Positions 816 to 13,226 of a DNA stretch of 39,693 nucleotides are shown here, in pieces (position 1 is the stretch's first letter; each line of letters starts with the position of its first letter). Source of the stretch: Dictyobacter arantiisoli. Its GTDB lineage: Bacteria; Chloroflexota; Ktedonobacteria; Ktedonobacterales; Ktedonobacteraceae. The stretch spans positions 1-39,693 of the forward strand of contig NZ_BIXY01000065.1 of assembly GCF_008326305.1 (NCBI RefSeq), in the 5' to 3' direction. The notes beneath the pieces were generated by a model, which worked only from the letters and a program-made list of their open reading frames with translations, was not told the DNA's origin and did no database searches. The translations under genes were made by a program, and so were the position numbers.

Positions 816-1388
816 TTATTCCCGTTCCTCGGCGGTTTCGGCTCCGTAGAGTTGTCCCGCATAAAGCGGATCACTGGGATGACGACCACGCTGATCGATG
901 CTTTCAAGGATACTGCTGAGTTGGATCAAGGTGCGCTCAATCTGTTGCGATTGACGCTGCACAGAGCGCAATTGTCCTGCCAGTTCATACAAACGGCGAT
1001 TCAACGCTGGTACATCGGCTTCCAATGGCTCTAATGGTGATAGTGGCGGCTCGTAACGGCTTTCACCTCGGGGTACAGTATAGGTATCAGGTGCAAATGT
1101 CTGATTTTGTGAATATGACGACCTATGCGGTTGCGTATATGATTGTACGGACGGCTGGCTCCGCTCTTCTTCACGAGCAGATGGAATGGGTACTGTTACC
1201 GAAGCCTGCTGGTTTCTGGCTGGCTCTATGGGAGCGCTCACACGTTCAGTAGCAACATTACTGTTATCAGCAGCCGAAGCTATCCGAGTCTGAGCTTGAG
1301 TCTGCTGGGCGCTCTCATCTGAGCGCATAAGTAAAAAAGCTAGCAGCAGCGCGATAGCAGCGACTGCAATTAATCCACCAATAATCAT
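816..1388 (-). CDS. Membrane-anchored coiled-coil protein, paralogue 1 of 2
   Basis: This 190-residue protein has an N-terminal hydrophobic helix at residues 2-21 that starts MIIGG. A Ser/Pro/Gln-rich, probably disordered linker covers about 22-125, and an amphipathic coiled-coil segment covers about 129-165 (NRRLYELAGQL, then QRQS and IERTLIQLSSILE). The same three-part plan and closely similar end segments are found in the 1650-2234 protein, so the two are paralogues. The start at 1388 follows an AAGGAAGAG site. It has its own promoter at 1492-1540, which carries the same operator as the tetR and VWA operons. The terminator at 1565-1606 separates it from its paralogue. No known family recognised. 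A membrane scaffold or partner of the other coiled-coil protein encoded nearby (5894-7264) is a guess. Confidence 0.8.
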   Translation of the reverse strand: MIIGGLIAVAAIALLLAFLLMRSDESAQQTQAQTRIASAADNSNVATERVSAPIEPARNQQASVTVPIPSAREEERSQPSVQSYTQPHRSSYSQNQTFAPDTYTVPRGESRYEPPLSPLEPLEADVPALNRRLYELAGQLRSVQRQSQQIERTLIQLSSILESIDQRGRHPSDPLYAGQLYGAETAEERE

Positions 1389-1473: not shown

Positions 1474-1540
1474 TGACTTATGTAACGATTTCATGACTAT
1501 TCAGTCATCAATTTACCAGATGGTCATATCAAAGTCAAGC
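1474..1540 (-). promoter_or_regulatory. TetR-type promoter/operator block A (upstream of 816-1388)
   Basis: Read on the minus strand, -35 TTGACT (1533-1538), a 17-base spacer and -10 TAAATT (1510-1515) form a promoter about 120 bases before the 816-1388 gene. Two dyads of 14 bases overlap it: TGACT-N4-AGTCA at 1494-1507, at the likely transcription start, and TTACC-N4-GGTCA at 1513-1526, in the -10/spacer. Their centres are 19 bases apart. A lone TGACT lies at 1474-1478, 20 bases from the first dyad. The block aligns without gaps to blocks B and C, with 38 of 49 bases identical to C over 1492-1540. Confidence 0.8.
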
Positions 1541-1564
1541 GATATGAGAAAGGATATAGAGCAT

Positions 1565-1606
1565 GCACAAAAAAGACCTCTAGACGTCTAGAGGTCTTTT
1601 TTGTGC
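1565..1606. terminator. Bidirectional terminator, perfect 42-base palindrome
   Basis: The sequence GCACAAAAAAGACCTCTAGA and its exact complement meet at the centre, with no unpaired spacer. The arms start with A-runs and end with T-runs, so either strand gives a GC-containing stem followed by U residues. It lies 43 bases past the stop of the 1650-2234 gene, just upstream of promoter block A, and so insulates the two paralogue genes. Confidence 0.85.
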
Positions 1607-1649
1607 TGGATAAAACTGTCCGGTTTGTTGAGATAGCTCCGCGTACCAG

Positions 1650-2234
1650 CTACTCTCTGTAGTGCAAACCCGCGGCTGATGGAATCCCATTCGCACTCTG
1701 TTCTGCAGAGTTACGTCCATGCATTCCCTCAATGACACCGCTCAATTGAACCAGTCCTTGTTCAATATCTCGCGATTGGCGCTGCAAGATGTGCAGTTGT
1801 CCGGCCAGTTCATATAACTGGCGATTCAATGTGGCGATTTCACGCTCGGAATATTGAGATTGGGCGGACTGCTCGGTTGCCCAGGATACTGGCAGTACCT
1901 CTTCACGGGTTGGATAATCCGCGATGTTATTTGTATGCTCGTTCTTCGCGTACGCCATCGTTGGGGCTTCTGGAAAATCCAGTTGCTCTAAGGGCTGACT
2001 TCTGGCTGAGAGTTGTTGGTCCTTGCGCTCATGCTCTGAGAGAGGAAGAGTCATACTCTTCTCTAATTCTGGCGCTGGCATCGTCTCTTGCTTCTCAATC
2101 GCAGCAGGCGTAACTGGCCCGGCAGGTACAGCTGCAGCCGCCGTTACTTTAGCACTCGTGTTACCACCACGTGACGCCAGGAATGCACCCAGCAAGGCGA
2201 GAACCGCAATGGCAATCAATCCTCCAATAATCAT
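1650..2234 (-). CDS. Membrane-anchored coiled-coil protein, paralogue 2 of 2
   Basis: This 194-residue protein has a hydrophobic anchor at residues 2-20 (again starting MIIGG), an Ala/Pro/Glu-rich linker to about 130, and a helical segment at 135-171 (LNRQLYELAGQL, then QRQS and IEQGLVQLSGVIE). The last segment is almost the same as in the 816-1388 protein. The ATG at 2234 follows AAGGAGAGAAG. It lies 81 bases after the HlyD-type gene on the same strand, with only an intergenic hairpin between, so it is probably the last gene of the tetR-efflux unit. The family is not recognised. Orientation of the C-terminal part, inside or outside the membrane, cannot be settled from the sequence. Confidence 0.8.
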   Translation of the reverse strand: MIIGGLIAIAVLALLGAFLASRGGNTSAKVTAAAAVPAGPVTPAAIEKQETMPAPELEKSMTLPLSEHERKDQQLSARSQPLEQLDFPEAPTMAYAKNEHTNNIADYPTREEVLPVSWATEQSAQSQYSEREIATLNRQLYELAGQLHILQRQSRDIEQGLVQLSGVIEGMHGRNSAEQSANGIPSAAGLHYRE

Positions 2235-2255
2235 TCTTCTCTCCTTCGTTCAATG

Positions 2256-2303
2256 CTTTGATGGATATCTGCCATGACGCTGTCGGGCAGATATCCATCA
2301 AAG
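2256..2303. other. Long intergenic hairpin inside the efflux operon
   Basis: An 18-bp perfect inverted repeat (2256-2273 and 2286-2303, arm CTTTGATGGATATCTGCC) encloses a 12-base loop. It starts 12 bases past the HlyD-type stop and ends about 20 bases before the ATG of the 1650-2234 gene. There is no T-run on the minus strand, so it is not a typical terminator. An mRNA-stabilising or partial read-through element is the likelier role. Confidence 0.65.
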
Positions 2304-2315
2304 AGGTGGTGATTA

Positions 2316-2972
2316 CTAGTGCAGGTGGATGGTTGCCTCGGCGCTCAGGCCAGGGACAACATTGTTGCTACCATTGCTATCCAGGGTGATGACAACCGGG
2401 ACACGCTGCGAGACTTTGCTGAAGTTGCCACTTGTGTTGTCATTGGTTGGCAACAAAGAGAAGGAACCGGCCGTCGCTGCAACGATGGTCTGGATATGGC
2501 CTTTATAACTGGTACCGCTGAATGCATCGATGGTAACGTCCACCTCCTGGTTGACTTTCACATCATTGATACGGCCCTCATCCACATAAGCGGTGACGGT
2601 CAAGTTATTAAGATTAGTAACCTGGATCAGAGGGGTACCGGCAGCAACGGCCTGACCAACTACGACGCTATCCTGAACGACGGTACCGTCGATGGGGCTG
2701 CTAACTTTCACATCCACAGGTTTGCCACCAGTGGCAGGTGTGACCAGGACAGTTCCGATAACTTCGTTCGCGGTGACCTTATCGCCAAGCTTCACTGCCA
2801 GAGTGTCAATCTGGCCAGAGCCAGGGCTGGCAACGGGCAGAATTGTACCTGTCACCTGAGCATCATCGATCGTATAGTAAAGATAACTATTGTAGAAGTA
2901 GTAGCCTAGACCACCAGCCGCAGCCAGGATGGCAACTACGATGAGGACCGTAACTAAAACAGTGCGACGCAT
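2316..2972 (-). CDS. HlyD/EmrA-type membrane fusion protein of an efflux pump
   Basis: This is a periplasmic-adaptor-like protein of 218 residues, working with the neighbouring DHA2 permease. An N-terminal transmembrane helix (about residues 5-25) is followed by a biotinyl/lipoyl-like half (IDDAQVTGTILPV, GQIDTLAVKLGDKV), a second half (SPIDGTVVQDSVVVGQAV) and a beta-barrel domain (LTVTAYVDEGRINDVKVNQ). EmrA proteins of Gram-negative bacteria are nearer 390 residues. This one lacks the long coiled-coil hairpin between the lipoyl halves, as expected where there is no TolC partner. Two starts compete. The ATG at 2981 lies one base after AAGGAG, which is too close. The ATG at 2972 has a ten-base spacing and is preferred. 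It follows the permease gene by about 130 bases on the same strand. Confidence 0.85.
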   Translation of the reverse strand: MRRTVLVTVLIVVAILAAAGGLGYYFYNSYLYYTIDDAQVTGTILPVASPGSGQIDTLAVKLGDKVTANEVIGTVLVTPATGGKPVDVKVSSPIDGTVVQDSVVVGQAVAAGTPLIQVTNLNNLTVTAYVDEGRINDVKVNQEVDVTIDAFSGTSYKGHIQTIVAATAGSFSLLPTNDNTSGNFSKVSQRVPVVITLDSNGSNNVVPGLSAEATIHLH

Positions 2973-3104
2973 TGTACGCATTCTCCTTCTTAAATGAGGG
3001 CATTAGAATTTAGATAAAAAACGTATAAAGTGTATTGAATGAATAAGCGTATTCGGGAATTTTTAGTATTCCCTTCTACCACACAGCATGGAAGGATGCA
3101 AGAC

Positions 3105-4727
3105 TTAGACAGCCATTGCAGCCTCTTCCAATGCTTTCTGCTCTTCCTCAGTTAATGACTCGGGTGCAACCTGCGGCTTTTTCTTGAAGCCACCCACGAA
3201 GATTGAAGCGAAAACTGCTACTCCAATCAAGATGAGCGTGAGCCAGAAGGTATCGCTGATCGATTGCACATAAGCCTGTCGCTTAACCAGTCCAGAAACC
3301 TCTTTAAGTGCGACCGCCATGGCTTGCTGCATCGTAAACCCTCTAGCCATAAAGCCAGCCTGAAGCATCTGGATCAAACGTCCCAGAGAAGTGTCAGGAG
3401 AGGACTTTACGGCGATGTTGGCGTAGTGCCTGGTGGTCTGCGATGATACAAAGGTAGAGATGACTGAGACTGCCAGCGAACTAATGACAAAACGGAAGGT
3501 CGTATTGACAGCTGAAGCCTGCGAGAGCATCTTTGGCTTGATCTGCGACAGACTGGCCATCATCAATGGCTGCATACAGAAGCCAAGACCGAAACCACGA
3601 ATGCACAGGGCAATTTGCATTTGCAAAATTGACTCATAAGAATTGATGAATGTAAGCATGTACATCGCAAAACCCATTACGAGCAAGCCCGGAATTACGA
3701 TGGTACGAACACCCATTTTATCAACCAGCCGACCACCAATGACTACAGCAACCATCGAGCACAATGATTGCGGCAACAGGTCAAGACCTGATTGGAAAGC
3801 GCTCAGCCCACGTAAGGATTGTAAGTAGACCGGTATAACAAATAGTCCACCATACAGAGAAAAAATTACTAACGAGCTTGCGATGATACCGGTGGTAAAG
3901 GTCATGTCGCTAAAGACGCGCAGATCCAATAGAACCGGCTTCTCTTGCTTGACACGCTGCAACTCCAGGAACACAAAGATGATGAGGAGAATTACGCCAC
4001 CACCGATACATCCCATCACAGTTGCAGATCCCCACCCATCCGAGTCGGCGGATGAGAGACCATAGAGCGTGGATGCCAGACCAATGCCAGCAAAAATGAA
4101 GCCCCAGAAGTCAAATTTGACGCGATGCGCGGGACTATCGTTTAAAAAGACCATCGCGGCAATCAAGCCGACAATACCAATTGGCACATTGATATAGAAA
4201 ATTAATTGCCAGCCGGAATAGGTTACCAGATATCCACCCACGGTTGGTCCAAGGGCAGGGCCTAACAACAATGGGATACCCAGAAAACCCATCGCGGTAC
4301 CGCGCTCGGCCGGAGGAAACTCCGAATAGAGCAGGGTGATCGCTAACGGTGAGATAAAGGCTCCGAAGACGGCCTGTATCACACGGAACGCGATCAACGT
4401 TGGGAGGCTCCAGGAGATACCACACAACGCTGAGCCGATAGTAAAGCCAGCCAGCGCGACGAGGTATAAGCGCTTGTTACCAATGCGACTCGCCAGATAT
4501 GCAGTCAATGGAGTGGCGACACCCTGGGCCAGCGTATACGCTGTTAATACCCACTGCACACTGGTAAGGCTAACTCCAAAGTTAGTCTCTAATTTCGGAA
4601 TGGCCGTATTGACGATGGTACTATCCAAAATCGTCATGAACAATCCGATTACGATCACAATCGCAACGATCCACTTATACGCAAGTCCCCCCGTTTTTTC
4701 GGCCGGGGGCGTTGCAATAACTTGCAT
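3105..4727 (-). CDS. DHA2-family MFS multidrug efflux permease (EmrB/QacA type, 14 helices)
   Basis: This 540-residue polytopic protein exports small toxic compounds, probably by proton antiport. The family marks are clear. The first helix carries LDSTIVNTAIPKL (residues 34-46), the DHA2 motif D1. The loop between helices 2 and 3 has the motif A form LASRIGNKRLY (78-88), and helix 5 has the antiporter motif C, GPALGPTVGGY (156-166). The length fits the usual 500-550 residues. The C-terminal tail is short and acidic. The ATG at 4727 follows AAGGAG by nine bases. It lies between tetR and the fusion protein on the same strand, the standard layout of a TetR-controlled EmrAB-like pump. The substrate cannot be read from the sequence. 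Confidence 0.93.
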   Translation of the reverse strand: MQVIATPPAEKTGGLAYKWIVAIVIVIGLFMTILDSTIVNTAIPKLETNFGVSLTSVQWVLTAYTLAQGVATPLTAYLASRIGNKRLYLVALAGFTIGSALCGISWSLPTLIAFRVIQAVFGAFISPLAITLLYSEFPPAERGTAMGFLGIPLLLGPALGPTVGGYLVTYSGWQLIFYINVPIGIVGLIAAMVFLNDSPAHRVKFDFWGFIFAGIGLASTLYGLSSADSDGWGSATVMGCIGGGVILLIIFVFLELQRVKQEKPVLLDLRVFSDMTFTTGIIASSLVIFSLYGGLFVIPVYLQSLRGLSAFQSGLDLLPQSLCSMVAVVIGGRLVDKMGVRTIVIPGLLVMGFAMYMLTFINSYESILQMQIALCIRGFGLGFCMQPLMMASLSQIKPKMLSQASAVNTTFRFVISSLAVSVISTFVSSQTTRHYANIAVKSSPDTSLGRLIQMLQAGFMARGFTMQQAMAVALKEVSGLVKRQAYVQSISDTFWLTLILIGVAVFASIFVGGFKKKPQVAPESLTEEEQKALEEAAMAV

Positions 4728-4815
4728 AATATCTAACTCCTTAATGACGTCTATTAGCTATTTATCTATCTATAAAAATGGAAAGAACATATAAAGGTAT
4801 TGACAATTCTGCTCC

Positions 4816-4851
4816 GCCTGATGACAAGCGCGACATGGCTTGCCATCAGGC
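4816..4851. other. Hairpin overlapping the 3' end of tetR
   Basis: Arms of 14 bases (GCCTGATGACAAGC against GCTTGCCATCAGGC, one mismatch) enclose an eight-base loop and cover the last codons and stop of tetR. No T-run follows on the minus strand. It may slow read-through into the permease gene or protect the mRNA end, which would let the regulator and pump be made in different amounts. Confidence 0.5.
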
Positions 4852-5523
4852 ATTTATATGTTCTGTTGATATGTTGTCCTTTTCTTCTGCTGACAGTTGG
4901 TAAGCCTGTGAAGAAGAAGCAGGAGCCGTAATACCGTGAAAGTAGATACATTTCAAATAGCGCACGAGATCCTCATGGCGGACCTTTTTACCACTGCGCA
5001 AGGTTTTGAACAAACGGGACATAATCATCCCGATCAAACTTTCCAGCATCACCTCGGTCGGCAACATCGCATTAAAAACGCCATTGTTCTTACCTTCGTC
5101 GAGCAAACTGAGCATATTCATATGAATAGTATTAAAGGCAGCTTGCAACTGGGAATCCAATTCCATGCCAGTATCGATGCTTTCACGCCACATAAATATC
5201 AACATATGTTTTTTAGCGATCTGTCGACAGATTTCATCGACCAGATGAGACAGGCGTATGTCTACGCTCTCTTGCTCTTTGAGAATCTGCTTCATAGCAT
5301 CTTGCAAGACCTGGAGTTCCCGTTTGAAAAGAGTCAGTACAAGGTCTTCCTTACTGGCGAAATGCTGGTAGAGCGTCCCTTTGGCTACCCCGACGCGCTG
5401 AGCAATCTCGCTCATCGAAGTATCGTGATATCCTCGCTCCAACAGCACTTCCTGTGCCGCCTGCAAAACAAGGGTTTCGCGCTCTTGCCTTTGCTTTTCT
5501 TTAAGCGATTGATGTATAGTCAT
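4846..5523 (-). CDS. TetR-family transcriptional regulator of the efflux unit
   Basis: This 225-residue repressor has an N-terminal TetR DNA-binding domain: helix 1 from about residue 14, helix-turn-helix at about 35-56 (MSEIAQRVGVAKGTLYQHF), then SKEDLV. Residues 70-200 form the helical ligand-binding and dimer domain, with no recognisable ligand signature. The last 20 residues are polar and probably flexible. The ATG at 5523 follows AAGGGATG. Its own promoter (block B) carries paired dyads over the -10 and start site, so self-repression is likely. The same block stands before the 816-1388 gene and before the VWA operon, making this protein the obvious candidate regulator of all three. That assignment is inferred from proximity and shared sites. 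Confidence 0.92.
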   Translation of the reverse strand: MTIHQSLKEKQRQERETLVLQAAQEVLLERGYHDTSMSEIAQRVGVAKGTLYQHFASKEDLVLTLFKRELQVLQDAMKQILKEQESVDIRLSHLVDEICRQIAKKHMLIFMWRESIDTGMELDSQLQAAFNTIHMNMLSLLDEGKNNGVFNAMLPTEVMLESLIGMIMSRLFKTLRSGKKVRHEDLVRYLKCIYFHGITAPASSSQAYQLSAEEKDNISTEHINA

Positions 5524-5595
5524 CTATAAATCTACATCCCTTAAGTATAATGTGTTGATCGCACCAGTTGTGTTCTGACTATTAAAACCAATTTT

Positions 5596-5662
5596 TGACT
5601 AGATTAATTTCTTTATGACTCCCTGGTCACTAATTTACCAGAAAGTCATAATTCTGTCAAGC
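5596..5662 (-). promoter_or_regulatory. TetR-type promoter/operator block B (upstream of tetR)
   Basis: On the minus strand -35 TTGACA (5655-5660), 17 bases and -10 TAAATT (5632-5637) form a near-consensus promoter about 100 bases before tetR. The dyads are TGACT-N4-GGTCA at 5616-5629 and TTACC-N4-AGTCA at 5635-5648. The extra TGACT half-site is at 5596-5600. All spacings match blocks A and C exactly. The remaining bases to the next gene (5663-5893) show only a small CTCCAC/GTGGAG hairpin and no coding signal. Confidence 0.82.
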
Positions 5663-5893
5663 AGTCCTCGACAACTCAGGACTTACCTATCACAGACGAA
5701 CCCACGTAGCGGTTGCCCTCCACGAGTGGAGTTATACAACCAGCTCGCACCAGGCTATAAATCTAAAACCTGTGAAATGCGCTTCTATCGTTCTCTGACG
5801 TATCTTCGGGGCAAGTTTATGCGCGACTCCACCAGGTAAAGGGTGCTAGATACGAGTCAACCATCATTCGTTGGCCTGGGCGCGTATGGAGGC

Positions 5894-7264
5894 TTACAGG
5901 GCGTGTTCAGAGGGCCGGGATAGCAGTTCGATGAGTTGCTGCTGATCCTGTTGTAGCCGGGTTAGAAATGCATCCTGGTGGCTGGCAAGGGTAGCTAGTT
6001 TCAGGGCGACTTCGGTCGTGCGCTCGTTAGAGAGATCCAGTCCATCGAGCATATTACGCAGGTCGGTGCCCCAGCGTTCCTGCTGACGGCCAAGCTGAGC
6101 CATGGTTTGGGCAGTATCTGTGAGGAGCCGGGTTGCCTGTGAGGCCGAGATATTTAGCATTTCTTGCTGTTGCGTGAGTTCAACCATCGGTGTCACCAGC
6201 TCTTCAAGTTGAAAAGTTAGCTGGCTGTTTGTTTCTTTGAGCAGGTTAGTGGCGTGATCGACATGCGCAGCTGTTTGTACTATCCCGCTCGTTAAATCCC
6301 CCATCTCTTTCAAATACTTACTCCCCTCTATTGACTGCTCAAGCATCTGATCAGCAACTTGTCTGAAGTATTTCATAACCTGCTGTGACATAGCATCATA
6401 TTTGTTGGTCATATCGCGGGCCATGTTATCCAGGTCCTGAGTAAGATCTTGAGACAGGAGGGAAAAATGTTCAGAGGTGTGTTGCGTCATATCTGCGAAA
6501 TCACCAGTGATACGCTCAAAGTGCTGAGAGACACGTTGCGTCATATCCGCGAAATCACCAGTGATACGCTCAAAGTGCGCGTCTAAACGGCGAGACATCG
6601 TATCAATGCGACGGACAACCACGGTCAGATTATCCGCTACGGTCAACTGGCTCTTAAATTGTGCTAAATAGAGTGAGACCAGGGCAAGCAGGTGAGTAAG
6701 ATCACTACGGAGTTCCTGTTCTTGCCGGAGTTGCTCCTGTTGTTGACGTTGCAGCCTCTGCGCTGGACCCAGTACCAACCAGCAGGAGAAGAGCAGAAAG
6801 GCCAGCACAAAGATCAGGTCGACGACAACCAGCGGACCAATACGCAACCAGGATGGCAATTGTCCATTAAAACCCTGTTGCCACCAGTAGAGGAGTGAGC
6901 CACTGGCGTTATGGATAGAGGATGACAGGATAGATGGATATAATTGCAAGGCACGCAACAGGCCAGTGCCAGTGAGCAGTACCGGTAGACAGAGTAGAAA
7001 GATACGCAGTGGCTTGGCCCAGAATGCGATATCACGCCCGGATCGTGTGTTTTGCGTGAGATAGCTATGATATTGTGCCAGTACAACCTCCGGCTGGACT
7101 ATAGCCAGGGGATCGGAATCAGCCCAGGCATTCATCTCAGCCGAGGATTCATCCTCAAGCGCGCTCCGTAAAAAGGTGAGACGCTGCGCGGCCGAAGGAT
7201 CAAATTCTTCAATACGCTGCGTCATGGTTGTCAAAAGATCAAGCATACGTGTTGTCTCAATCAT
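5894..7264 (-). CDS. Two-helix membrane protein with long coiled-coil tail (kinase-operon gene 4)
   Basis: This 456-residue protein is the last gene of the VWA-PP2C-kinase operon. Residues 1-80 are cytoplasmic-looking and acidic. Two strong membrane helices lie at about 86-106 and 144-166, separated by some 35 residues. From 168 to the end it is an almost unbroken Gln-rich coiled coil. Part of the coil is an exact internal repeat, HFERITGDFADMTQ twice, 18 residues apart. The coil resembles the signalling helices of chemoreceptors in pattern, but no methyl-accepting or HAMP signature is present. Its ATG overlaps the stop of the kinase gene by four bases (ATGA), so the two are translationally coupled. 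It is a plausible membrane anchor, sensor or substrate for the kinase. No known family recognised. Confidence 0.85.
   Translation of the reverse strand: MIETTRMLDLLTTMTQRIEEFDPSAAQRLTFLRSALEDESSAEMNAWADSDPLAIVQPEVVLAQYHSYLTQNTRSGRDIAFWAKPLRIFLLCLPVLLTGTGLLRALQLYPSILSSSIHNASGSLLYWWQQGFNGQLPSWLRIGPLVVVDLIFVLAFLLFSCWLVLGPAQRLQRQQQEQLRQEQELRSDLTHLLALVSLYLAQFKSQLTVADNLTVVVRRIDTMSRRLDAHFERITGDFADMTQRVSQHFERITGDFADMTQHTSEHFSLLSQDLTQDLDNMARDMTNKYDAMSQQVMKYFRQVADQMLEQSIEGSKYLKEMGDLTSGIVQTAAHVDHATNLLKETNSQLTFQLEELVTPMVELTQQQEMLNISASQATRLLTDTAQTMAQLGRQQERWGTDLRNMLDGLDLSNERTTEVALKLATLASHQDAFLTRLQQDQQQLIELLSRPSEHAL
6481..6578. repeat. In-frame tandem duplication within the coiled-coil gene
   Basis: A 44-base segment starting GTTGCGTCATATC occurs at 6481-6524 and 6535-6578, 54 bases (18 codons) apart, with one base difference. 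It keeps the frame and the heptad-like phase of the coil. The near identity points to a recent duplication. Confidence 0.85.
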
Positions 7265-9537
7265 AATACTCCTTGTGAGGTGGGATCACTTCCATCCGCA
7301 AAAAACCAGCGCTCTTTGTCCTCCCAGACGTCTAAGAGCGCACTATACCCATGGACATAGATATGCTCAGCCGCCTCAAACGGGAGCATACATTGTCCTT
7401 GTTCCTGGCCCTGCCGTTGAACCCAGCAAGTTGTCTTCCCCAGTGTCGCACGCTGAACGTGGTTCGCCAGATGAGGTGGATAACCTGCGTTACTCCAGAC
7501 GATCACGGCATGCTGGATGAGTTCTGTTGCAGGCCATCGCCAGCGCACCAATAATTGTGGACGACCAGCTTGCTGGATTAGCTCGACCGTCAGGGCTGTC
7601 AGGTCATGCTGCCGAACAAAGCGGAGAGCAGCTTTCTGTAGTTTAAAGGCGTTGAACGTGCTAATATACGGTCGAACAGCTTCAGGCAGTGCGTTGCTAG
7701 CAAGCAGTGCACGCTCATAAGCCTTGCTGGCTAATGCCTGTTCAATCTCCACACTTTGCAGGGCACAGGCAATACGCTGGCGCTGCGAGGCCGTAAAGTC
7801 GCTAAAAGCTTGCGCAAGAGTAGCATCATAGGCTGCCCGGATCGCCTGCTCATCTTCGCTGGCACAGGCATGCTCGACACGTTGGTACATACTCAGATAT
7901 GCGCGAGCCGTCTGCACATCTTCCAGCTCCTGTGCGGAAAATAGAAATGTACGCGCGGGAATGGATTGCTGGATGGCCTCATAGGCGTCGATTAACGCGC
8001 TGGCGATGCGCTCCTGATATGCCCGCTGGAAGGCACGGGCCCGAGCCAGTAGCGAGCGCTCACGCGGAGTAACGTTCTGACAATTGTTCAACAATCGATC
8101 ATCGTAGGCAGTCGCAATCTGAAGCGGTCGTTTGTTGGACAGCGCGATACGGAAGCGAGCCAGCGCGCTACGCCGACGCTGCGCAAGTCTGGCCCGTTCT
8201 AATAACGCCTCTGGCAGCGCCTGAGCATCAAAGTGACCAAAGTTACTGATCTCTTCATAAGCAGCTGCAATTGCCTCATCGTCCTCGCTCTGACAGACTT
8301 GAGATAGTTGCTTAATCTGCTCATCCATCTGTCGTACGCTCACCGCACGTTCCGTCACCGCGCGACTTACCCCTGGCACACCAGAAGCGATAGGATATAG
8401 CGAGGATGAGGCTGTGTGAGAACGCTGGATACTTGCAACACTCTGTCTCGGCGCGGTATGGTGGATATCATGGCTATCAGCTACCGCCAGAGAGGATAGG
8501 ACGCTGTCACGCCGTACATTACTTGTTGTCGGATAGACCAGAGTTCCATCATGCAAACTGGGAGCTTGCTCAATAAATTGAAGTGGAAAACGAACCTGAT
8601 TAACATCTTGCAGACAGGCCTGTTGGAGTGCATGGATGGCATCTGTCACCTGCGCATTATCCAGGCGCAGCAATTCATGGAACAGTTGGGATTGTCGCGG
8701 CTCTTTGAAATCCTGGCGCGTAAAAAGCAGGTTGGTATCCAACAGTTTGTCCTGCTGATCGCGCTTCATATATGTATCCCAGAGTTCGGGGTGAACAGCC
8801 AGGGCCGACAATGCTGTGTAGATAACCAGGGCAGAGAAAGCATCCATAGAGGCGTTAAAGGTGCGCTCAGACATCTGTGGATGCTGGTAGTCAGCCTGTC
8901 CCAACAATACGCGATCCAGGTGGGCAGCGGTAGGACCAAATTCAGGCAGATAAACGCCATCATAGTCCACCAGGACCAGCGAGTGATCTGGCCTGACCAT
9001 AATATTCACGGCGGCCAGATCCCCATGCGCCATCCCACAACGTTGCATACACGAGACGAGATACAGCCATTGCTGGATGAGCTGACGTAAGGAGGCGGTA
9101 TCGCGTTGTCGACAGAACACATCTACCTGCTCCAATAACGTCAGGCCATCGATCCATTCCATATCAATGACGGGATATGCCTGCGCCGTGCTTTTCCCCT
9201 GCTCCTTCACCATAATACTGGCATCATGATAGGAACAACCCACGGTGATAGCGGACGCATGGCGCTGAAAGAAGGGTCCCATACGCTCATAGCGGAACCG
9301 CATTGTCGCGTTCATTGGAACACGAAAACAGCGTAGAGCACGCATTTTGCCACTGCGAGTGCGAAACTTATAGACGACTGCGAAGCCCCCTTCAATACCC
9401 CAGGGGCGCTCGACCGTTCCCAGCGCCGTCTGGCTGGTAACGACCTCAACCTTGCCCTGCTTCAACTCGGGATCGGCTATCCGTAAGCGTGTCGCGGCAA
9501 AAAGCATCGCCTCATCATAGGCAAGACGATCCGGCAT
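7261..9537 (-). CDS. Protein kinase with helical repeats and beta-rich C-terminal domain
   Basis: This 758-residue protein has an N-terminal eukaryotic-like kinase fold (about 40-260) of the kind found beside VWA and PP2C genes in TerY-P-type loci. The nucleotide loop is near GIEGGFAVVYKF (47-58). The catalytic loop is HGDLAAVNIM (171-180), with D173 as base and N178 as metal ligand, and the DFG-equivalent is DYDG (191-194). The lysine of the VAIK motif is replaced by arginine (ALRCF, R69). After a Ser-rich linker come about 240 residues of repeated helices (for example DEAIAAAYEE, LQIATAYDD, EQAIRAAYDA). The last 120 residues look like a beta-sandwich (LLVRWRWP, IYVHGYSAL). It starts four bases after the PP2C stop and overlaps the next gene by four bases. 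It probably phosphorylates proteins in a pathway reversed by its PP2C neighbour. Substrates are unknown. Confidence 0.85.
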   Translation of the reverse strand: MPDRLAYDEAMLFAATRLRIADPELKQGKVEVVTSQTALGTVERPWGIEGGFAVVYKFRTRSGKMRALRCFRVPMNATMRFRYERMGPFFQRHASAITVGCSYHDASIMVKEQGKSTAQAYPVIDMEWIDGLTLLEQVDVFCRQRDTASLRQLIQQWLYLVSCMQRCGMAHGDLAAVNIMVRPDHSLVLVDYDGVYLPEFGPTAAHLDRVLLGQADYQHPQMSERTFNASMDAFSALVIYTALSALAVHPELWDTYMKRDQQDKLLDTNLLFTRQDFKEPRQSQLFHELLRLDNAQVTDAIHALQQACLQDVNQVRFPLQFIEQAPSLHDGTLVYPTTSNVRRDSVLSSLAVADSHDIHHTAPRQSVASIQRSHTASSSLYPIASGVPGVSRAVTERAVSVRQMDEQIKQLSQVCQSEDDEAIAAAYEEISNFGHFDAQALPEALLERARLAQRRRSALARFRIALSNKRPLQIATAYDDRLLNNCQNVTPRERSLLARARAFQRAYQERIASALIDAYEAIQQSIPARTFLFSAQELEDVQTARAYLSMYQRVEHACASEDEQAIRAAYDATLAQAFSDFTASQRQRIACALQSVEIEQALASKAYERALLASNALPEAVRPYISTFNAFKLQKAALRFVRQHDLTALTVELIQQAGRPQLLVRWRWPATELIQHAVIVWSNAGYPPHLANHVQRATLGKTTCWVQRQGQEQGQCMLPFEAAEHIYVHGYSALLDVWEDKERWFFADGSDPTSQGVL

Positions 9538-9541
9538 ACCC

Positions 9542-11872
9542 TTAACCTCTCCACCATTTAAAGTTCACCACCCAGGGGCACACCTGCTCCAGACGCTGCC
9601 GGAAGGTCGAGCCATCATAGCCATGTGTCACCTCCAGCCAATCCTGCAACTGCATCGATTGTTCCCAGAGCAGATACTCCTCAAAGAGCTGGCGGTTCAG
9701 CAGCATCAGCAGAATATCTTTCACCTGCTCATCAGTCAAAGCATATGCGCGCAACAGCGTTGCATAGTTTACTGCGGGATCATTCTTAAAGGCTTGAAAA
9801 ATATCCGGCAAGAGCATCTCAGGCATCAATGGTACCGAGGCACCGGTACGATTAGCCAGCTTAATCCCTTCCTGAATCAAGGCGGCATTGACCAGATCAT
9901 CCAGCGTCGTCTGCTCCAACTCCGCGTCAGATACTTTTTGATACACCCAATGGATCAAATAGAGACGTTTCACGTGACACACTTTACGGAACCAATATTC
10001 ACTAATCGCAGGAATATCGGAAGCCAACCGCATCGAAGAGGATAGCGCACTGCTACTCGCTGCCGTGGAAGATGACGGCACCGTGGATGTAGTTGATGGC
10101 CGGGTTGTAGCTGTAGGAGATGGCGGCATCATCGACATAGACGGTGTTGGCGTCGTAGTCATCGGAGATGGTCGTGGCGTAGCCGCGGCGGGTGGAGGCA
10201 AGGCTCGTTGCTGCTGTTGCTCATATTGACGGCGCACCTGTTCGATATATGCCATTTCTTGATTAGTAAATAGCAAATAATCCCGATAAGGAGAATTCAG
10301 AATAGCAGCGACCGCCGCAAGTAAAGCTCGGGAGTCCTGTAAACGCCAGGCATCCACAAATTGGCAGGAGAGAAACACCAGTTGCTGCTCTTCGAGAGAG
10401 AGGAACGAGGTATCACGTCCAATCAGGTCCGCTGAGATAGCAATCTGCTCGACACGCTGGCTGGCGATAGCACGTTGCATACGCCGCCGCTCATTATCCC
10501 GTTGTAATGCCAGTTGGATACGCTGCCGCTCGCTCTCACGGGTCCCGCCCCATATCGCGGCGGCATGTGGCGAATTCTGGATTGTATGGTACACCTCCAC
10601 AATCGCCTCATCCCGATTCGAAGCAATAGCCTGCCTTACGCTATATTCCAGATGCATTTGCTCCTGGCTCTTGATGATAACATGCAAGGAACGTGGCCTG
10701 GCTAGCTGTATTGCCATAGTCGTACCAGCAGGTGCCATCGCCTCACGGAGCGGCACACCGATACGCTCCAATGTCTTACAGACCGCATCCGCACAGGGCT
10801 CATCTATCAGGAGCGCAGCATATTTGCGCCACGTAGGAATAATTCTGGCCGCCGCCTGTGGATCATTTACATTGCGGCGCAACACCTGCAATACTTCGCG
10901 CAAGGCATCGGCCACCTGACGTGCATGCTCCTGTTCCTCAAGCGGCAAAAAGATACCCTCGTATTCCAGATCAATGCCATCCCCATAGAGAATAGCCGCC
11001 TGCTCTTTATTTTGATTATGGACTGCCTGTAAAAAAGCATCGCCGCGACTGGCCCGCATAGCTGGACGGTGGGCAAACGTCCCACCCAGCATTGCGCCAT
11101 CAGGTCCAGGCTCATTATCCAGGCGTACAACGACCGCGGTACAATCATCATCCACCATCTCGCCAGCGGCCCGGCAAGAGGCAATAAAAGTCGGCCATGA
11201 CGCGGGTACCTGCTCGGTCACAGCCATAAAAGCCGCAGCCTGATCCTGTAAATGGCCCCCGCCCGCGCTTACAATCCAGCGCGCCACCGCATCCGTCGCC
11301 AGAATGACCATATCGCCAGGCTCAAACTCGATCTGACAGGTCATGCCACGCTGAAAATAGCGCTGAAACGCACTGAGACGAGAAGGCAGGCAAATCGGCG
11401 GCTGATCAAAATCAGCCACGCGTTTCACGGGGAAAACAGATACAGCGGCTGTAGCAGCCTTTCGGATGAAAATACAACTATCCCCAAATACCAACAACTG
11501 GGCTTTGCGAGAAAGGGTAGCGCCCTGTCCGGGCAATACACGAATAGTAGCGAGCGTCGAAAAGCTCCCCTCATTTTGCACTTTCTGCAAAACGTTCCAG
11601 GGCATTCCTTCCAGAGCGGGCAAAGTCTGCTGAAAATGCGCTTGCGCCGTACGCAACCACCACTCAACCTCAAACGGATCAGCGCTCAGTAGTGGTGTCT
11701 CGATAAAATGATCGACGAGGTGCCGGGCCCATATGTTAGAGAAAAGCGTTGTTCCAACACCGTCAGCCACAGCTAACAAGCCTTCAGAAAGGCGTATTCC
11801 CAAAGCATCTTCGCACGACTGCTCATTATGCTCGGATTTCCAACATTGCAACCTGGTAACTTGTGCATACAT
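9542..11872 (-). CDS. PP2C-type protein phosphatase with helical repeats
   Basis: This 776-residue protein has residues 1-250 that carry the PP2C metal ligands in order: ED at 21-22, ADGVG with D37, FGDS at 129-132, ATDAV with D194 and DDDCTAVVV from 241. An active manganese/magnesium phosphatase is therefore likely. Residues 270-550 are helical and contain segments like those of the partner kinase (RDEAIVEVYHTI, ERQRIQLAL). A Thr/Ser/Pro linker covers about 557-615. A separate helical domain ends the protein (LLPDIFQAF, FKWWRG). The ATG at 11872 has only a weak ribosome site. The kinase gene follows after four bases, so the phosphatase and kinase are surely co-expressed. No membrane segment is present. 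Confidence 0.87.
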   Translation of the reverse strand: MYAQVTRLQCWKSEHNEQSCEDALGIRLSEGLLAVADGVGTTLFSNIWARHLVDHFIETPLLSADPFEVEWWLRTAQAHFQQTLPALEGMPWNVLQKVQNEGSFSTLATIRVLPGQGATLSRKAQLLVFGDSCIFIRKAATAAVSVFPVKRVADFDQPPICLPSRLSAFQRYFQRGMTCQIEFEPGDMVILATDAVARWIVSAGGGHLQDQAAAFMAVTEQVPASWPTFIASCRAAGEMVDDDCTAVVVRLDNEPGPDGAMLGGTFAHRPAMRASRGDAFLQAVHNQNKEQAAILYGDGIDLEYEGIFLPLEEQEHARQVADALREVLQVLRRNVNDPQAAARIIPTWRKYAALLIDEPCADAVCKTLERIGVPLREAMAPAGTTMAIQLARPRSLHVIIKSQEQMHLEYSVRQAIASNRDEAIVEVYHTIQNSPHAAAIWGGTRESERQRIQLALQRDNERRRMQRAIASQRVEQIAISADLIGRDTSFLSLEEQQLVFLSCQFVDAWRLQDSRALLAAVAAILNSPYRDYLLFTNQEMAYIEQVRRQYEQQQQRALPPPAAATPRPSPMTTTPTPSMSMMPPSPTATTRPSTTSTVPSSSTAASSSALSSSMRLASDIPAISEYWFRKVCHVKRLYLIHWVYQKVSDAELEQTTLDDLVNAALIQEGIKLANRTGASVPLMPEMLLPDIFQAFKNDPAVNYATLLRAYALTDEQVKDILLMLLNRQLFEEYLLWEQSMQLQDWLEVTHGYDGSTFRQRLEQVCPWVVNFKWWRG

Positions 11873-12222
11873 ACAATTTCAGTTTCTCATCATAATGCTG
11901 CCATCCTGCCAGTATACTGTCAGCCTGCATGCAAAGGTTCTCCGAGTGGGGCTGCAAAAGCGATCAAGGGTTTGCAGTCCCACTTCTGCCCGACAAGGCC
12001 ATTTTTCAAATGCAGGGTAACAGTCCAATAAGCCAGAGGCATGGCTTCACTGGCTTAACAGGATGTTTGCTTCTTCATACCGCATTCCCCATGCGTTGCG
12101 GCTCAGATTTTTGAGCATAGTATAACTTGGTCTGATCTTGCACCTTCAGACGCGTGTGCTATAGATTATATCTTTTTATAACTACGAAGATCAGTATATC
12201 TGGTACTAAAAAGGAAAAATCC
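11873..12222 (-). other. 350-base gap between the VWA and PP2C genes, with leader hairpin
   Basis: No gene is supported here. On the minus strand an imperfect 13-bp stem (11946-11958 with 11971-11983, arm GTGGG-CTGCAAA, one mismatch that is a wobble pair on the plus strand) sits about 75 bases before the PP2C start. A weaker AAGCCAG/CTGGCTT pair lies near 12031-12057. TATAAT-like and TATACT-like boxes occur around 12110-12170, so a second internal promoter is possible. A short AGGA/TCCT stem with T residues just after the VWA stop could give partial termination. Confidence 0.45.
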
Positions 12223-13113
12223 TCAGGAATTGCTGGTGGTCAATGGCTGCGTAGCAGGTACACTGGCAAAGACAAACATCTGACGTACAGACGCGGCATC
12301 TCCATTGAAGATCAACCCTTTCGCGCCTGGCTCAACTTCTCTTCCCAGCAGGGACTGTAAAAGCTTACGGCTACTCTCAGGGATAACGCTTGACATCTCA
12401 AATAGCAATTGTGCGTAAGGATCAGCGGGAAGAGCTTCGCTGGTCGCAGGATAGGTAATAGGGGCAAGATTGATATCAGTAATATGGACATTGAAGACCA
12501 AAGCTTCACCATCATTCGTCGCAACCTGTCTGATGGCCTGTGCCACCTCCAAAGGATCTCCATCACTGGCGACGCCATCCGTGACATTGATAATCACCGG
12601 AGGATAGCTATCGGGATGTTGCGCGACCCACTCCTGAGCCAGCTCATGCGCCTGTTGTAACGCCATACACATTGGTGTACCCGCGCCCGCTTTTGCCTTC
12701 ACCCAGACCGGAAAAGGCACAGTAATCTCAATCTCCTGGCCGGTATCATCGATCTCAGTACGGTGGCGACGCTCGATATCCAGAGGATTCATCTGCAACT
12801 CGGACAAGCCGACAAAGGTCCTGCCCGTCAAATTTCCCTGCAAAACAGGCTCAACCGAAATACCCTCATAACCAAGTACGGCTACTTCAGCGCGTGGACG
12901 CACCTCGGTTGTGCCATCCCGTTGTGCTACTGTATTTGAAACAATCAATTCATTGAGAAACCCATTTAAAACGGTCGCCACCATATCGCACTTGCGCCGT
13001 CCCGCACCAGCCTGTGCGGCCCCAAAGGGATCGGCCATTGAACCGGACTGATCTAATAAGAAAATCAGGCAACCAGGACGTGAACCCGCCCATACCTGTG
13101 TATATGTATCCAT
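12223..13113 (-). CDS. Von Willebrand factor A domain protein (TerY-like), first gene of the kinase operon
   Basis: This 296-residue protein is almost entirely one VWA domain. The metal-ion adhesion site is intact: DQSGS at 21-25 (D21, S23, S25), T146 in AGTPM, and D179 in NVTDG. It therefore probably binds a divalent metal and a protein partner. There is no signal peptide or membrane helix, which suits a cytoplasmic TerY-like protein rather than an adhesin. About 60 C-terminal residues beyond the fold may contact partners (LLFEMSSVIPES). Together with PP2C and kinase genes on the same strand it forms a TerY-P-type triad, although the TerY-C zinc ribbon is absent. The ATG at 13113 follows GAGAGGA at a long spacing of about 13. 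Promoter block C lies some 75 bases upstream of it. Confidence 0.88.
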   Translation of the reverse strand: MDTYTQVWAGSRPGCLIFLLDQSGSMADPFGAAQAGAGRRKCDMVATVLNGFLNELIVSNTVAQRDGTTEVRPRAEVAVLGYEGISVEPVLQGNLTGRTFVGLSELQMNPLDIERRHRTEIDDTGQEIEITVPFPVWVKAKAGAGTPMCMALQQAHELAQEWVAQHPDSYPPVIINVTDGVASDGDPLEVAQAIRQVATNDGEALVFNVHITDINLAPITYPATSEALPADPYAQLLFEMSSVIPESSRKLLQSLLGREVEPGAKGLIFNGDAASVRQMFVFASVPATQPLTTSNS

Positions 13114-13159
13114 TGAAATAGTAAAATCCTCTCAAAAATAGCGCTAATCCTAAATTTAT

Positions 13160-13226
13160 TGACTAAAGATACCAAAGCATGACTTTCTAGTCATCAATTT
13201 ACCCAATGGTCATACACTTGTCAAGA
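13160..13226 (-). promoter_or_regulatory. TetR-type promoter/operator block C (upstream of the VWA operon)
   Basis: On the minus strand -35 TTGACA (13219-13224), 17 bases and -10 TAAATT (13196-13201) lie about 80 bases before the VWA start. The dyads are TGACT-N4-AGTCA at 13180-13193 and TTACC-N4-GGTCA at 13199-13212. The extra TGACT is at 13160-13164. The layout is base-for-base that of blocks A and B, so the kinase operon is probably under the efflux TetR regulator. The rest of the gap up to 13486 shows no gene or clear repeat. Confidence 0.82.

Follow-up and report, generated by a model that had tools for sequence, protein, structure and literature searches.

We describe three related promoter-operator blocks on the minus strand of a 39,693-nt stretch of DNA from the soil bacterium Dictyobacter arantiisoli (assembly GCF_008326305.1, contig NZ_BIXY01000065.1, positions 1 to 39,693; the window), which are very probably promoter-embedded operators of the TetR-family repressor encoded in the same gene cluster. 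Block 2 precedes the operon of the repressor itself, tetR-emrB-hlyD-hyp194, block 1 precedes hyp190, and block 3 precedes an operon of VWA, PP2C, kinase and coil456 genes, all three units being predicted to answer to this TetR. Comparison of the sites, of their conservation and of their restriction to one TetR clade and one cluster strongly supports such a regulon.

Aligned without gaps over 67 nt (1474-1540, 5596-5662 and 13160-13226), the blocks share 44, 48 and 42 identical positions pairwise. All of them match the composite pattern TTGAC-N6-ATGACY-N4-GGTAAATT-NN-TGACY-N4-RGTCAT with no mismatch; allowing up to three mismatches, neither the remainder of the window nor any of 100 shuffled sequences gave a further match. 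The three blocks are real, and chance similarity is far exceeded. Each consists of a -35 hexamer (TTGACT, TTGACA and TTGACA in blocks 1 to 3), a spacing of 17 and an identical -10 TAAATT, and this promoter is overlapped at the start site by a dyad of 14 bp, TGACY-N4-RGTCA. Another dyad, 19 bp upstream of the first, spans the spacer's end and the opening bases of the -10 element, and a third half-site, RGTCA, follows 20 bp downstream. A sequence-only reading of the window had proposed the ungapped alignment, the TTGACA/T and TAAATT elements 17 apart and the spacings of 19 and 20, and was accurate in each of these; beyond what it described, the tetR promoter carries a fourth half-site another 20 bp on, at +40 (TGACT on the plus strand). 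Coordinates are given in Table 1.

The same periodicity is found in related promoters. Of 69 such promoters, 49 repeat RGTCA at +19/20, 28 at +39/40 and 18 at +58-60, and 52 have TGACY at -19 or -20. The operator appears to be an array and not a pair, which would most naturally be read as dimers bound every two turns along one face of the DNA. An Rfam search for an RNA element in the leaders returned no match.

Table 1 Operator blocks and genes of the cluster (window coordinates).
Feature	Coordinates	Strand	Details
Block 1	1474..1540	-	-35 TTGACT 1533-1538; -10 TAAATT 1510-1515; start-site dyad 1494-1507; upstream dyad 1513-1526; third half-site RGTCA 1474-1478
Block 2, tetR's own promoter	5576..5662	-	-35 TTGACA 5655-5660; -10 TAAATT 5632-5637; start-site dyad 5616-5629; upstream dyad 5635-5648; half-sites 5596-5600 and 5576-5580
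Block 3, TerY-P promoter	13160..13226	-	-35 TTGACA 13219-13224; -10 TAAATT 13196-13201; start-site dyad 13180-13193; upstream dyad 13199-13212; half-site 13160-13164
TetR-family repressor, proposed owner of the three operators	4846..5523	-	profile, clade and structure comparison
EmrB-type DHA2 MFS multidrug exporter	3105..4727	-	TIGR00711 384 bits, cutoff 230
HlyD/EmrA-type adaptor	2316..2981	-	HlyD Pfam domains above cutoff
hyp194	1650..2234	-	hyp190 paralog; last gene of tetR-emrB-hlyD operon
hyp190	816..1388	-	directly behind block 1; ortholog of the last gene of the relatives' second efflux operon
TerY-type VWA protein, first TerY-P operon gene	12223..13113	-	PADLOC TerY 2.4e-68
PP2C phosphatase of the triad	9542..11872	-	PADLOC PP2C 3.4e-22
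Ser/Thr kinase of the triad	7261..9537	-	PADLOC STK_OB 9.9e-46, kinase part only
coil456	5894..7264	-	membrane segments and long coiled coil; 4-bp overlap with kinase gene

Throughout the genome (7.2 Mb in 256 contigs), the composite pattern with up to three mismatches matches at three places only, all in this cluster, and a looser pattern adds one site, in front of a paralogous tetR gene on contig 71. For the exact pattern of the -10 element joined to the start-site dyad, there are five occurrences: the three blocks and the promoters of paralogous tetR genes on contigs 30 and 71. When the dyad is taken with its 20-bp half-site and without any promoter element, exact matches are limited to the three blocks and the contig-30 tetR. 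In a scan of 84,980 species, one genome each, the exact 45-bp pattern was confined to the Ktedonobacterales, where it is carried by Dictyobacter, Ktedonobacter, Tengunoibacter, Thermosporothrix, Ktedonosporobacter, Ktedonospora, Thermogemmatispora and relatives. The paralog on contig 30 (L190, 52329-52931), which shares these dyads, stands alone; it is not followed by an efflux gene and has orthologs in most of the genus.

The product of the window tetR gene has a TetR helix-turn-helix domain at its N-terminus (PF00440, 66.1 bits against a cutoff of 24), and its predicted structure (AlphaFold, pLDDT 86) is all-helical with a normal TetR fold and many TetR matches in the PDB. Searching 41 genomes with this protein, we gathered 76 homologous genes with their upstream sequences. 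TGACY-N4-RGTCA lies upstream of 47 of the 76, mostly centred about -75 to -130 from the start codon, compared with a mean of 0.12 and a maximum of 1 for shuffled upstream sequences; because of this association, the clade almost certainly binds the dyad. Among the homologs that lack it, some (L052, L055) close an operon whose leading gene carries the motif. Across genera, the motif accompanies members of this protein clade. The tree places the window TetR in one clade with its four orthologs from the genus (100/99), and their operators all have a dyad spacing of 19 bp; this group lies inside a nine-member clade in which the dyad is present in every case (9/9). The recognition helix reads VGVAKGTLYQHF in the window TetR, with the consensus VGIAKGTxYLHF; K, G, T, Y and H are invariant in a 26-sequence alignment, and by analogy with TetR(D) we take them to be base-contact positions.

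In the mechanism that we propose, TetR dimers would occupy the start-site dyad, the dyad 19 bp upstream and the further half-sites spaced about 20 bp, or two turns, apart downstream, all on one face of the DNA, and RNA polymerase would thereby be blocked. The repressor would silence its own operon, tetR-emrB-hlyD-hyp194, together with the leftover second efflux unit, now hyp190 only, and the TerY-PP2C-kinase-coil456 operon. Once bound by its ligand, presumably an efflux substrate, the repressor would let go of the three units together, and an efflux inducer would then also be expected to switch on the kinase system.

Several points weigh against this mechanism. TetR binding, repression, the same-face multi-dimer mode, the inducer and co-induction are all inferred, and in D. 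arantiisoli the 350-bp gap between the TerY and PP2C genes could hold another promoter. Furthermore, the recognition helices of two paralogous TetRs, C30 and C71, are similar, and both of their genes are preceded by TGACY-N4-RGTCA; C30 also has the +20 half-site. It is thus possible, though on balance rather unlikely, that the paralogs C65, C30 and C71 share the sites, with TerY-P answering to more than one ligand or mainly to C30, which has no efflux gene behind it. On the other hand, the upstream dyads differ: that of C30 has a spacing of 20 and CGTTA, and that of C71 reads CAACT..AGTAA, whereas all three cluster sites have a spacing of 19 and GGTAA. These differences favour the local TetR. 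The 20-bp spacing holds in 4/4 members of the C30-type clade, the non-tetR sites of the cluster are all of the 19-bp type, and the cluster sites physically adjoin the local tetR in 5/5 species. A second efflux-TetR clade (brp13, Tengunoibacter), however, is also of the 19-bp GGTA type, so that operator type does not correspond one-to-one with clade. The proposal of a TetR regulon over the three units, made in the sequence-only reading, is supported, since the motif tracks one tetR clade; this TetR may not act alone, because the two paralogs have the same half-site and similar recognition helices and might cross-talk.

With the window we compared all four remaining genomes of the genus, those of D. 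vulcani, D. kobayashii, D. aurantiacus and strain brp13, giving five species in total. The cluster with its three sites is kept in all four, where the sites precede tetR-emrB-hlyD-hyp, a second efflux operon and VWA-PP2C-kinase-coil. At the TerY promoter, 21 of 22 dyad columns are invariant over the five species, compared with 8 of 34 in the spacers and none of 140 in the flanks, and at the other two orthologous sites the dyad columns are likewise far more conserved than spacers and flanks. Dyads that stay invariant while their surroundings drift are what purifying selection on them would be expected to produce. The D. aurantiacus TerY promoter has an altered -35 hexamer but retains the dyads.

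The comparison also clarifies the origin of block 1. Its counterpart in the relatives precedes emrB2-hlyD2-hyp, and in brp13 tetR2-emrB2-hlyD2; block 1 itself shares 84% identity over 86 bp with the D. kobayashii emrB2 promoter. The hyp190 product matches that of the terminal gene of the second efflux operon in D. aurantiacus (74% over 43 aa), and there are DNA matches in D. kobayashii. By these matches, hyp190 represents the terminal member of the second efflux operon, whose emrB2 and hlyD2 genes have evidently been lost in this species. In the simplest history, an autoregulated efflux operon would have been duplicated and the copy's own repressor lost in most species, and emrB2 and hlyD2 would then have disappeared in D. 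arantiisoli, leaving the promoter on the terminal gene. Duplication accounts for the origin of sites 1 and 2, and the blocks might be alike for this reason only, the TerY-P copy being a carried-over promoter without regulation. We consider this improbable, as the TerY promoter has kept its dyads over five species, even beside a changed -35 hexamer, while spacers and all 140 flanking columns drifted.

It is less probable still that another, unlinked regulator binds the dyads: although the pairing of TetR and dyad is drawn by comparison, this TetR clade is the only regulator family that tracks the motif across genera. Finally, a generic sigma-factor promoter motif, suggested by the canonical -35 and -10 elements of each block, is ruled out by the genome counts, all five occurrences lying in the cluster or at tetR genes, and by the concentration of conservation in the dyads. 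Recurrence before dozens of unrelated genes, which the sequence-only reading had named as the outcome that would speak against it, is thus not seen in this genome, with only the three sites and two paralogous tetR promoters; its expectation of conservation in other Ktedonobacteria was borne out by the dyads, spacing and three-site cluster in the genus and by the 45-bp pattern in the Ktedonobacterales.

Of the three downstream units as originally named, tetR-efflux stands unchanged, the "small coiled-coil gene" becomes the remnant of the second efflux operon, and the VWA-PP2C-kinase operon becomes a TerY-P triad: a TerY VWA protein, a PP2C phosphatase and a Ser/Thr kinase are encoded together (PADLOC PDLC02224, 02222 and 02223), an assignment made by profile matches. 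The STK_OB profile is matched over 13-297 of 562 only, and the C-terminus of the kinase, where an OB-fold or zinc ribbon would be expected of the triad, has no Pfam domain above cutoff. The gap between the TerY and PP2C genes (11873-12222) contains an imperfect hairpin, measures 36 bp in D. vulcani and is possibly a species-specific insertion. The efflux genes form an EmrAB-type pair, with a DHA2 permease and an HlyD/EmrA adaptor, the latter scoring 108.9 bits against the EmrA subfamily TIGR00998, under its cutoff of 390.8. The hyp194 and hyp190 proteins, each with a single N-terminal membrane segment and a coiled coil at the C-terminus, belong to a small family encoded at the end of these efflux operons; neither has a Pfam or NCBIfam match.

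Outside the genus, the TerY-P operator was found neither in Ktedonosporobacter nor in Thermogemmatispora or more distant Chloroflexota, and no efflux genes adjoin TerY-P in the 14 regions examined from other Chloroflexota. In Ktedonosporobacter, hlyD and a hyp194-like gene immediately precede the closest triad (80% for TerY), which lacks the operator; upstream there is a MarR-type gene. Efflux and TerY-P are therefore linked in two genera, by predicted co-regulation in Dictyobacter and by co-linearity in Ktedonosporobacter, and common ancestry of the arrangement is possible. In Ktedonosporobacter rubrisoli (L191, 8594-16004), the TerY-P kinase gene is split by an insert of ~6.3 kb with a recombinase (PF07508), which falls between the catalytic-loop halves HGDLAGVN and VNIMVRPDG and shares GTCAA at its junctions; the insert may be a serine-recombinase element within a gene of defence type. 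Thermogemmatispora has larger TerY-P operons (L193, L194) with a Ser/Thr kinase, TerY, PP2C, a 1021-aa kinase, a GAP1-N2/GAP1-M protein and a coil456 homolog, the last of which suggests that coil456 is a regular partner of this TerY-P branch.

The predicted system resembles autoregulated efflux TetRs of the QacR, AcrR, MtrR and TtgR type in its TetR fold, in the position of tetR beside a DHA2/HlyD pair and in the dyads over the promoter. It differs from all of these in having a phosphorylation operon in the regulon, and from QacR, with its overlapping pair, in having two dyads 19 bp apart and half-sites every ~20 bp. By sequence and fold, the best match of the window TetR is Bacillus FadR (FadR-type structures 5gp9, 5gpa, 5gpc and 3whb being the nearest solved), yet the protein scores 75.2 bits against the FadR equivalog NF053878, well under the cutoff of 200, and no fatty-acid genes were seen; the FadR operator is also different. 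The RutR consensus of E. coli, TTGACCANNTGGTCAA, fits TGACY-N4-RGTCA. RutR differs in its pyrimidine regulon and in its recognition helix, and it is not known to have a tandem array. The RutR site is a palindrome of ~16 bp (PMC10891134). FadRSa of Sulfolobus acidocaldarius (PMC6449355) is similar in that this TetR represses its surrounding gene cluster and has just four sites in the genome, but it acts on lipid genes from an archaeal promoter. TerY-P is described as anti-phage, acting on T7-like phages (PMC7699616), and forms with an OB-fold kinase are described as stand-alone defence (PMC11090510). The triad of Gao et al. 2020, as described in these two sources, likewise combines VWA, PP2C and Ser/Thr kinase in one operon; in comparison, the one described here adjoins efflux genes, has a TetR operator and encodes a kinase whose C-terminus is unmatched by the C-terminal part of STK_OB.

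In the open-licence literature, we found no report of TetR control of TerY-P, of this operator or of tandem 20-bp TetR arrays, and no description of how TerY-P is switched on. Our comparisons support a TetR that autoregulates its efflux operon through a phased operator array and has a TerY-P module in its regulon. Members, operator and repressor of this small regulon are all predicted, which makes it directly testable, and the clade provides a natural series of TetR-operator pairs (19 versus 20 bp spacing, 76 homologs) in which TetR specificity and binding to tandem arrays could be studied. We see about an even chance that a TerY-P module of the anti-phage type has been drawn into the chemical-stress regulon of a multidrug-efflux TetR, with small molecules de-repressing pump and triad through a phased multi-dimer array confined to Ktedonobacterales. 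If true, this would tie an anti-phage-type phosphorylation module to drug sensing, and TerY-P may therefore defend against antibiotics or competitors, instead of or besides phages.
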